64,000 nt of DNA, from positions 1,426,001 through 1,490,000 of the forward strand of contig NZ_CP070490.1 of NCBI RefSeq assembly GCF_016925635.1. Direction: 5' to 3'. The translations under genes were made by a program, and so were the position numbers. This document shows, one piece after another, positions 39,655 through 41,618 of this stretch. Every line of letters starts with the position of its first letter. The first letter of the stretch is position 1. Under the pieces are notes generated by a model. The model was not told where the DNA came from, did no database searches, and worked only from the letters and a program-made list of their open reading frames with translations. The stretch is from Lysinibacillus fusiformis (GTDB lineage: Bacteria; Bacillota; Bacilli; Bacillales_A; Planococcaceae).

Positions 39655-40938
39655 TTAAAAGGTAAATGCAACGATTTCTTCCTCACCACTTTTCATATCT
39701 TTTATTTTATACATATTTTGACTGACCTCGTTTTCTCCTAATACAATGACCTTTGGTGTGTTTTCACGATTGGCTTTTTCCATTGCCTTCTTCACTTTTT
39801 TCCCACTTAACTCAACTTCTACTTTATATTTTTCTCGCCGTAATACAGTTGCCAGCTTTAGTGCCTCCTTTTCTGTTCCCAGAGGAATAATATAAATATC
39901 CACACTAGGAGCGTTTTGATCTACTTTTCCCGAAAGCGCCAAAGCTGTATAGATGACATCTAACCCAAATGAAATACCAACAGTTGCATAGGTTTGATCT
40001 GTCTCTAAAAGGCCACCAATTGCATTGTCATAGCGTCCCCCGCTACCAATACTTGATCGGATTGTTCCATCAGCTAAAAAGATTTCATAAATTGTTCCTG
40101 TGTAAATTTCAAGTCCTCTCGCTAAAAATGGATTGAAAATACATTGCCCACTTATTCCAAGTGCCTCTATATAAGCTGTTAGTTCCGTTAATTCCTGTAA
40201 ACCTTGTTGTAAAAAGTTGTTTTCGGTCGCATAGCCTTCAAAATACGCCATACTTATTTGAGGACGTTCATCTAAAAAACGCTTTATTTTATTAATGCTA
40301 TTATCTAATAACCCCAATGCCTGCAATTCTGCGAGCATTGTTTTCTCGTCTATTTTTTCAATCTTATCTAAAATTAAAATAACTCGATTCATTTGATCCT
40401 GTTCAACCTCAAATAATTGCAGCAAACCAACTAAAAGCTTGCGATTATTATATTGGAGATTAATTTTAAGTTTAAGCTGATCAAAGGCATCTATCGCCAT
40501 CATCATTAGCTCCGCCTCAGCAGCCTGTGATTCTACCCCAACAATATCTACATCACATTGTGTAAATTCGCGAAAACGACCAGCCTTGATGGGGCCATCT
40601 CGAAATACTTTGCCAATCTCATATCGTTTAAATGGCATAGCAATCGCTGGATTCATAGCTACAACCTTTGCAAATGGAATCGTTAAATCATAGCGTAACG
40701 CTAAATCCCGCTCGCCTCGATCTGTTAATGTATACATCTCCTGTAAAATCTCAGCACCACCAGCATATTTAGAAGCCATCAACTCTGTATAGTTAAGAAT
40801 AGGTGTTTCTAACGGCTTGCAGCCATAGGATATAAATGTATCTTCTAACGTACGGCGTATCGCACGACGAGTAGCCTCCTGCTCTGGTAAATAATCTTGT
40901 GTTCCTCGAACATTCTGATAGTCCATTTTTTTCATCAT
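39655..40938 (-). CDS. hisS: Histidyl-tRNA synthetase, stand-alone copy
   Basis: A 427-residue class II synthetase that charges tRNA-His. RGTQDYLPE (11-19) opens the domain, motif 2 is FKRYEIGKVFRDGPIKAGRFREF (103-125), RGLEIYTGT at 274-282 is the histidine-binding HisA motif, and GSGGRYDNAIG at 298-308 is motif 3. A C-terminal anticodon domain follows (VDIYIIPLG...). The GLEIYTGTIYEI and FRDGPIKAG wording differs from the usual Bacillus HisRS, and aspS is not next to it, so it is probably an extra copy. AGGAGGAG precedes ATG 40938, and the upstream leader looks like a histidine attenuator. Confidence 0.85.
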   Translation of the reverse strand: MMKKMDYQNVRGTQDYLPEQEATRRAIRRTLEDTFISYGCKPLETPILNYTELMASKYAGGAEILQEMYTLTDRGERDLALRYDLTIPFAKVVAMNPAIAMPFKRYEIGKVFRDGPIKAGRFREFTQCDVDIVGVESQAAEAELMMMAIDAFDQLKLKINLQYNNRKLLVGLLQLFEVEQDQMNRVILILDKIEKIDEKTMLAELQALGLLDNSINKIKRFLDERPQISMAYFEGYATENNFLQQGLQELTELTAYIEALGISGQCIFNPFLARGLEIYTGTIYEIFLADGTIRSSIGSGGRYDNAIGGLLETDQTYATVGISFGLDVIYTALALSGKVDQNAPSVDIYIIPLGTEKEALKLATVLRREKYKVEVELSGKKVKKAMEKANRENTPKVIVLGENEVSQNMYKIKDMKSGEEEIVAFTF

Positions 40939-40964
40939 AATCTCCTCCTCATTTTTTGAGCAAT

Positions 40965-41011
40965 AAAAAAACCGTATAACGATAAAGCTTCAAATCAGCT
41001 TTATTTATACG
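40965..41011 (-). terminator. Attenuator terminator in the hisS leader
   Basis: On the minus strand CGTATAA (41011-41005) pairs with TTATACG (40979-40973) and AGCT-containing TAAAGCT with AGCTTTA inside it, then seven T follow. It lies 27 bases before the hisS start, between leader peptide and gene, so it would end transcription unless prevented. Confidence 0.85.
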
Positions 41012-41024
41012 ATTACATGAGAAA

Positions 41025-41071
41025 TAGTCTTCCTATTCAATATTAATAAGATAATAAAGATAGCAAGACTA
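41025..41071 (-). promoter_or_regulatory. Attenuation stem with candidate antiterminator segment
   Basis: TAGTCTTGCTAT (41071-41060 on the minus strand) pairs with ATAGGAAGACTA (41036-41025), 11 of 12 positions. The 5' arm begins at the leader stop codon, directly after the His codons, so a stalled ribosome would mask it. The loop contains CTTTATT (41059-41053), which can pair with AATAAAG (41005-40999) in the 5' arm of the terminator. This 7-bp pairing is a tentative antiterminator. Confidence 0.6.
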
Positions 41072-41122
41072 GTGATGATGATGATGTTTTGTTGTGAATG
41101 ATTGGACAAGAGTAATGACCAT
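41069..41122 (-). CDS. hisS leader peptide with five consecutive His codons
   Basis: A 17-codon ORF, too short for normal gene finding: MVITLVQSFTTKHHHHH, from ATG 41122 to TAG 41069. An AGGGGG ribosome binding site lies 7 bases before the ATG. The run of His codons (41072-41086) ends at the stop codon, as in amino-acid operon leader peptides of proteobacteria. It lies between a sigma-A promoter and a terminator hairpin ahead of histidyl-tRNA synthetase, which fits ribosome stalling on shortage of charged tRNA-His. The upstream CCCTT can pair with AAGGG at the ribosome binding site, perhaps tuning its translation. Confidence 0.8.
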   Translation of the reverse strand: MVITLVQSFTTKHHHHH

Positions 41123-41150
41123 GTTTATTCCCCCTTTAATATTAAGGGTT

Positions 41151-41179
41151 ACTATAAGACACACCAGATTAAATGTCAA
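41151..41179 (-). promoter_or_regulatory. Sigma-A promoter of the hisS leader
   Basis: On the minus strand TTGACA (41179-41174), an exact 17-base spacer and TATAGT (41156-41151). A start about 7 bases on would leave a leader RNA of about 200 bases before hisS. Confidence 0.8.
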
Positions 41180-41186
41180 ACTTTTT

Positions 41187-41618
41187 CTAAAATTCATACA
41201 GTATTTTTTTCATTTTTTCTAGAGTAGCTAACATTTCAGCTAATTCTTCAGATGATAAATTAGCATGGTACTTTTCTGTAATCTGTTGATTAAAGGCTTC
41301 GATTTCCTGTTTATATAGTTGCCCCTTCTCACCCAATTCAACAGAAAATGCACGCTTATCCTCTTCATGCTGCCTTTTCATTATATAGCCATCCTGTTCA
41401 AGCTTAGCTAATTGCTGACTCACTGCACTTTTCGTAATAGCCATTTTATCTGCTAGTTCTGAAGGTGAACAGGACGGATGACGAATCACTAATGTTAAAA
41501 GAACATATTGCTGATTATTTAAGGAGTAATTAGTATAAGCCCTTTCCATTTTCTCAAGCATGATCCAAATATCTTCAATGGTTTGATTAATTTGCTCCGC
41601 TACCTTGTTATTCTTCAT
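41187..41618 (-). CDS. MarR family regulator
   Basis: A 143-residue regulator with the winged helix NNQQYVLLTLVIRHPSCSPSELADKMAITKSAVSQQLAKLEQDGYIMKRQHEEDKRAFSVELGEKG (about 37-100) and flanking dimer helices. An in-frame GTG at 41633 overlaps the AAGGTG site, so ATG 41618 is preferred. Its start lies inside the last codons of the small membrane gene upstream, and the hisS leader promoter begins just after its stop, with no terminator between. It may control the upstream membrane protein; the ligand is unknown. Confidence 0.85.
   Translation of the reverse strand: MKNNKVAEQINQTIEDIWIMLEKMERAYTNYSLNNQQYVLLTLVIRHPSCSPSELADKMAITKSAVSQQLAKLEQDGYIMKRQHEEDKRAFSVELGEKGQLYKQEIEAFNQQITEKYHANLSSEELAEMLATLEKMKKILYEF

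Follow-up and report, generated by a model that had tools for sequence, protein, structure and literature searches.

The window, meaning the whole stretch of 64,000 nucleotides of Lysinibacillus fusiformis DNA that was analysed, carries on its minus strand a gene for a second histidine--tRNA ligase, hisS2, preceded by a short leader with its own promoter, peptide, stem and terminator (Table 1). The leader peptide ORF follows a Shine-Dalgarno-like sequence, AAAGGGGG (the DNA ahead of its ATG at 41122 reads AAAGGGGGAATAAAC), and its stop codon at 41071-41069 provides the first three bases of the stem B:C, which has one internal G.G mismatch. The terminator hairpin occupies 41014-40970, its seven T extend to 40965, and hisS2 starts at 40938. 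The earlier note on this DNA had described the promoter, the 17-residue ORF ending in five His codons, the stem beginning at the stop codon and the terminator with seven T in front of a HisRS gene; all four are present on the minus strand as described, the ORF is kept in orthologues, and both stem and terminator are supported by covariation.

Table 1. Features of the hisS2 leader and the regulated gene, in positions of the window.
Feature	Position	Strand	Basis
Sigma-A-type promoter, TTGACA-17-TATAGT	41151..41179	minus	11/12 consensus matches
Leader peptide ORF, 17 codons, MVITLVQSFTTKHHHHH, TAG stop	41069..41122	minus	His-rich leader ORF in 79/80 hisS2 orthologues
Five tandem His codons (CAT x4, CAC), proposed sensor	41072..41086	minus	sequence and fixed spacing to stem
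Stem B:C, TAGTCTTGCTAT (41071-41060) with ATAGGAAGACTA (41036-41025)	41025..41071	minus	covariation, co-evolution
Intrinsic terminator E:F, seven T	40965..41014	minus	sequence, covariation, co-evolution
hisS2, second histidine--tRNA ligase, 427 aa, 0 His, regulated gene	39655..40938	minus	NF009085, 615 bits; composition

The leader is the only short ORF in the window (8-30 codons, ATG start) with at least three consecutive His codons; ten mononucleotide shuffles of the window had on average 0.5 such ORFs with at least three His codons and 0.0 with at least five. Promoters with at least 10/12 matches were found in 14 of 71 orthologous leaders, versus 3.2 of 71 in shuffled sequences. A simple terminator scan of the window missed the hisS2 leader terminator, probably because the stem has bulges and is A/T-rich; we judge the terminator to be real because its arms covary. 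No Rfam family reached its gathering score anywhere in the window and, over positions 40930-41190, neither T-box (RF00230) nor His_leader (RF00514) was among the six matches up to E = 10. The T-box marker motif was not found within 600 nucleotides upstream of 80 hisS2 genes (allowing up to 2 mismatches), which bears out the absence of a T-box from the hisS2 leader that had been noticed before.

The genome (5.01 Mb) has three HisRS-like genes: hisS2 (615 bits against NF009085, cutoff 540), hisS1, which is the usual hisS and has 31% identity to hisS2, and a third gene that is hisZ by its family score (501 bits, cutoff 447). T-boxes control HisRS genes in response to the charging of tRNA-His; in this genome, a T-box (RF00230, 109.5 bits) lies upstream of hisS1 and is absent from the hisS2 leader. 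The leader is not on the housekeeping hisS but on a second HisRS that is free of histidine. The nearest named relatives are Lysinibacillus species, at protein identities of up to 94%. The hisZ locus of the same genome (L003), the one hisZ compared, has no match to the leader model R1 at E <= 10, and two weak matches elsewhere in the genome (L116 and L117) have no leader.

For comparison, public genomes yielded 318 related stretches, the best 80 of which served as the set of hisS2 orthologues. In 76 of the 80, a script detected an upstream leader ORF containing two or more consecutive His codons, and three further leaders (L049, L075 and L111) were recovered, bringing the number to 79; in L049, the His codons are interspersed (THVHQHTE). 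In the other two, other sequence separates the leader match from hisS2: 314 nucleotides in L075 (2687-3000) and 547 nucleotides in L111 (2454-3000). The sole orthologue that has no leader, L082, is a tandem duplicate: L082 and L076 are neighbouring hisS2 copies in Oceanobacillus sp. J11TS1, and the L082 copy retains only the 3' part of the terminator.

Among 261 genomes of the window's order, 36 have hisS2 (E <= 1e-60), and in all 36 the leader model matches at above 70 bits, with the match ending about 27-34 nucleotides before the gene. Leader matches at E <= 0.01 occur in 46 genomes of this sample, 39 of them with more than 70 bits. The three extra genomes above 70 bits (G041, G052 and G060) have, like G596 (L161), broken hisS2 remnants behind the leader; the remaining seven have weaker matches alone (<=36 bits), and one of these, G254 (L153), was inspected. 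At L157, L158, L159 and L161 leaders have outlasted the broken hisS2 copies, and in three of the four the His run or the stem is altered: the first leader His codon is now Gln in G060, G052 has one new stem mismatch and L161 has several. An even sampling of the class gave matches at E <= 0.01 in 12 of 398 genomes, including two strong ones outside the window's order, and a sample of the order of Peribacillus alkalitolerans has matches at E <= 0.001 in 50 of 299 genomes (43 above 70 bits; the downstream gene was inspected for part of these matches). The earlier note had proposed that the same leader be sought in other genomes and, judged by this conservation, the His-codon leader on a histidine-free spare HisRS is real and widespread across Bacillaceae-type genomes.

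Eight places with weak R1 matches (seven genomes of the class sample, L149-L155, and in addition L156) were looked at individually: seven have no leader, and the matches were judged to be chance. L150 (G493) has a terminator that resembles those of the hisS2-leader family; this terminator lacks an upstream His leader, is followed by other genes and is perhaps a left-over of this family. In a phylogenetic tree, hisS2 of Exiguobacterium undae (L049) falls within the Lysinibacillus-type sequences (bootstrap not fully settled), which suggests horizontal transfer.

The earlier note had also asked for covariation of the stems, and both the stem and the terminator covary. In 62 aligned leaders, the pairs of stem and terminator are standard in 97.8% of cells, and in 9 of 20 pairs both partners have changed. 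The covariation score was matched by none of 500 shuffles, the number of pair types was reached by one, and sliding the strands against each other abolishes the covariation. The spacing is fixed as well: the first His codon is 15 nucleotides from the stem base in 63 of 72 leaders (12 nucleotides in eight and 13 in one). Stem base and stop codon coincide in 66 of 72 leaders, and the stop codon is 3-4 nucleotides further upstream in the other six. The bases of the stop codon are paired, and variants (TAG, TAA, AAG) are mostly compensated on the opposite strand. The G.G mismatch is present in most leaders; its replacements are U.G (L092), G-C (L102) and G.A (L037). Inside the terminator arm, a candidate for another start codon that follows AGGAAG was rejected, as its third base varies in the alignment by eye (ATG, ATT, ATA and others).

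Two features of these leaders would suit a mechanism that is not based on translation, with the stem or the CAT run binding a protein (HisRS2, for example) and the peptide being incidental: the stem strands CTTGCTA and TAGGAAG hardly vary on either side, which is more conservation than pairing alone would require, and CAT is preferred over CAC, with 207 of 216 leader His codons being CAT versus 29 of 57 in hisS2 genes, so that a constraint on the run at the RNA level is possible. We nevertheless regard protein binding as highly improbable, because the leaders retain their start and stop codons, reading frame and ribosome binding site while other residues of the peptide vary (in many lineages it ends like ...SQLHHHIK), and because related leaders in front of another gene carry runs of CAR rather than CAY. 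The sensor is very probably the translation of the leader His codons.

In the leader of the E. coli his operon, the alternative stems are labelled B:C and D:E, with D pairing to the terminator arm E. As the hisS2 stem lies at the stop codon just as in E. coli his, D:E and other alternative pairings were looked for. Consensus folding with masked 5' ends gave no conserved antiterminator. In a swap test with 44 thinned leaders of the larger (non-Lysinibacillus) group, which compares the pairing of cognate strands with that of strands exchanged between leaders, co-evolution was found for B:C (p 0.0002), its apical part (p 0.0006) and the terminator (p 0.0002), and not for C:E (p 0.56), loop:E (p 0.86) or D:E (p 0.16). 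When 40 segment pairs were compared in 57 pooled leaders, with four upstream segments included, B:C and E:F alone survived multiple testing; the best other pair was u1 x C (p 0.019), C:E had a p of 0.985, and pairings of the leader or 5'-UTR with B, C, D, E or F were rejected on the same grounds. Against shuffled sequences, C:E, loop:E and D:E had mean z values between -0.43 and +1.24 (C:E: 0.42 and 0.68). The window's own group has eight leaders after thinning, and the positive controls of the swap test are not significant there either; against shuffles the same controls are strong (z -3.8 and -2.8). Thus, by these comparisons, no pairing that would exclude the terminator is detectable in hisS2 leaders, and B:C and E:F alone co-evolve. 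Two statements of the earlier note are affected. The 7-bp complement between the loop and the 5' arm of the terminator is indeed there (CUUUAUU:AAUAAAG, -4.0 kcal/mol), yet it does not rise above chance (z -0.41), shows no co-evolution and was rejected as an antiterminator; the layout said to be that of classic attenuation has the His-codon peptide, the stem at the stop codon and the terminator, but an antiterminator is not detectable.

A fixed short pairing could escape these tests, for which the control segments were chosen by hand. A classical antiterminator may thus have been missed by the comparison because it is short or fixed in sequence, for instance D:E with UAUUU/AAAUA in the window; short A/U pairings of this kind can be drawn in hisS2 leaders, and E. 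coli his, with its stem at the same place relative to the stop codon, does use D:E. We consider this possible, if on the unlikely side: D:E has -0.6 kcal/mol in the window and a mean z of -0.13 in 71 Bacillus-type and of +1.24 in 23 Lysinibacillus-type leaders, whereas the same test readily finds D:E in E. coli his (z -5.3) and in each of four longer His leaders from other bacilli (z -2.6 to -5.8).

The product of hisS2 is unusual in its composition. HisRS2 of the window has no His in 427 residues and is unique in this among the window's 38 mechanically called ORFs that reach 250 residues; 45 of 81 hisS2 proteins are likewise free of His, the others having between one and four. The 152 flanking ORFs have a mean of 23.5 His per 1000 residues, and one of them has none. 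Among the best 120 database homologues of each protein, His residues number 0-2 in the relatives of hisS2 and 6-17 in those of hisS1, both lists being confined to near relatives. Trp is as depleted in HisRS2 as His is, relative to the flanking genes; hisS1 is low in Trp too and near normal in His, and therefore the depletion of His alone is specific to hisS2. The leaderless duplicate L082 has no His either and, as nearly all hisS2 genes have the leader, a low His content is inseparable from a property of this HisRS family. An enzyme that lacks His could still be made when His-tRNA is short, and this composition, the main evidence for the direction of the switch, indirectly supports an induction of hisS2 on shortage of His-tRNA.

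Taken together, we consider it probable that the hisS2 leader is a transcription attenuator that is sensed by the ribosome and controls a spare HisRS, switching it on when His-tRNA is short. A ribosome on the leader peptide would test the supply of His-tRNA at the tandem His codons. With ample His-tRNA it would reach the stop codon, where its footprint would cover strand B almost exactly; with B covered, the terminator would form and hisS2 would be off. With scarce His-tRNA it would stall just upstream. A ribosome with a codon in its A site reaches about 12-13 nucleotides further, and from a His codon it would therefore touch the base of the stem at most; as the stem lies just downstream of the His codons, most of it would be left intact. 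B:C would then form, and polymerase would read on into hisS2; the synthesis of its product requires no histidine.

With the logic reversed, strand C would be freed by a ribosome at the stop codon and pair with the 5' arm of the terminator, so that hisS2 would be on in plenty and off in starvation. Folding with masks by itself suggests this direction: in these models, the 5' arm of the terminator pairs with upstream RNA at a mean of 0.05-0.24 with a mask that ends before the stem and at 0.31-0.46 with a mask that ends 7-19 nucleotides into it, and most when B is covered rather than the His codons alone. Duplexes of strand C or the loop with the terminator arm also have -1.9 to -8.3 kcal/mol in single sequences. 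C:E, however, neither co-evolves nor exceeds the shuffles in the tests above, and a histidine-free HisRS would be an odd thing to make when histidine is abundant; we therefore regard the opposite logic as improbable.

For induction in starvation, the stem might act in the absence of any antiterminator. In such a two-hairpin attenuator, B:C formed behind the polymerase, next to a stalled ribosome, would lower termination, by a pause or by binding to the polymerase, and a ribosome at the stop codon would switch it off by covering B. Elements of the put or EAR type, which act on RNA polymerase, would likewise give read-through with no competing hairpin, and Rfam gave no match to one here. The whole would be a portable module whose specificity could be rewritten between CAY and CAR, the His version being paired with an enzyme purged of His. 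We put this forward tentatively, as an idea that is rather doubtful in its full form.

The earlier note had called the attenuator class, if real, unusual for Bacillaceae; the class is not a new find in bacilli: Naville and Gautheret (2010) described a T-box on hisS and predicted a His leader peptide on a Bacillus-specific hisS paralogue (hisS*) and on hisZ (PMC2965389). Their leader resembles the one in the window in having a His-codon leader peptide and a terminator before a Bacillus hisS paralogue; it differs in that it is presented, in section 10 of that paper at least, without an antiterminator, the spacing, a covariation analysis, the His-free product or the Gln relatives. Ashniev et al. 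(2022), in the part of their article consulted, place His attenuators upstream of his operons in three lineages, the B. cereus group, Eubacteriales and Erysipelotrichales, and report no match of RF00514 in the Firmicutes phylum (PMC9413887). Like the hisS2 leader, these attenuators of Firmicutes encode a His peptide, with a run of 3-5 His codons, but, as far as that part goes, control genes of His biosynthesis and transport rather than hisS2, and alternative antiterminator structures are described for them. The E. coli hisL leader (NC_000913) has the same layout, with tandem His codons, TAG, a TCTT...GGAAGA stem at the stop codon and then a terminator, but has a clear D:E antiterminator (z -5.3), which is not detectable in the hisS2 leader; a possible homology between the two has the shared layout in its favour but no match of model R1 to the hisL locus. 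The proximal stem-loop of E. coli his is said to form in starvation, with the ribosome stalled (excerpt of PMC10989985). The vmlR leader of B. subtilis is likewise a Bacillus leader whose terminator is controlled by ribosomes that stall on an upstream ORF; according to the sections of PMC9226507 available, it senses antibiotics and uses an anti-antiterminator, an antiterminator and a NusG-dependent pause. A search of the open-licence literature, as far as its texts were accessible, turned up neither an experiment on the hisS2 leader nor any remark that an antiterminator is missing, and no title or abstract beginning concerned a histidine-free HisRS. Known, then, are the attenuator class and the hisS paralogue as its target; as far as that search goes, new here are the two-hairpin form in which an antiterminator is not detectable, the product free of His and the related leaders with Gln runs.

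If this reading is correct, the hisS2 leader is a widespread and testable case of attenuation sensed by translation in relatives of Bacillus, although the polymerase of B. subtilis reportedly runs ahead of the leading ribosome (PMC9226507, in part). Should no antiterminator exist, textbook attenuation logic would need another way for the stem to govern the terminator. A HisRS that is controlled by starvation and contains no His would avoid a rescue enzyme that needs the very charged tRNA that is missing. Cognate bias has been described for biosynthetic enzymes (PMC4209129, as far as available), and a His-free starvation HisRS would extend this idea to a tRNA synthetase tied to its sensor; leader and HisRS2 look like a built-in emergency kit for His shortage in Bacillus relatives.

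Two related groups of leaders were found. A longer His leader is present in 5 of 19 genomes of the family of Gottfriedia endophytica; by eye, it has B:C, C:D, D:E and a terminator, and such leaders, at L174-L178 and L216-L220, have a strong antiterminator. The gene behind it is a permease in L174 and L175 (presumably an amino-acid permease, from reading the sequence), a hisS2 homologue in L176 and a frame of 172 codons in L177 and L178. The hisS2 homologue (L176/L216) has one His in 429 residues and 49% identity to hisS2 of the window, and the permeases of two genomes have none (L217) and one (L218) in 474 residues, so that products of this kind, too, could be made when His-tRNA is short.

The second group consists of short leaders with a Gln run, found at first in two genomes with 58.4 and 72.5 bits (QQQQ and LQLQQQN). 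The gene behind them, which from reading we take to be an RlmI-like methyltransferase, is present in 180 of 299 genomes, and 4 of the 29 RlmI-like loci inspected among the 30 closest have the Gln leader upstream. Provided that the run is the sensor, the change from CAY to CAR together with the gene suggests that specificity would lie in the run and not in the stem. The four RlmI-like genes with a Gln leader are not poor in Gln (9-15 Gln, versus 8-21 in 26 other loci), and therefore the logic of cognate depletion does not extend to the Gln leaders. Gln-leader loci are L221-L224 (G844, G887, G867 and G710) and also L211 and L215; the leader of L222 has a broken-up run and, by eye, no stop codon at the usual place.
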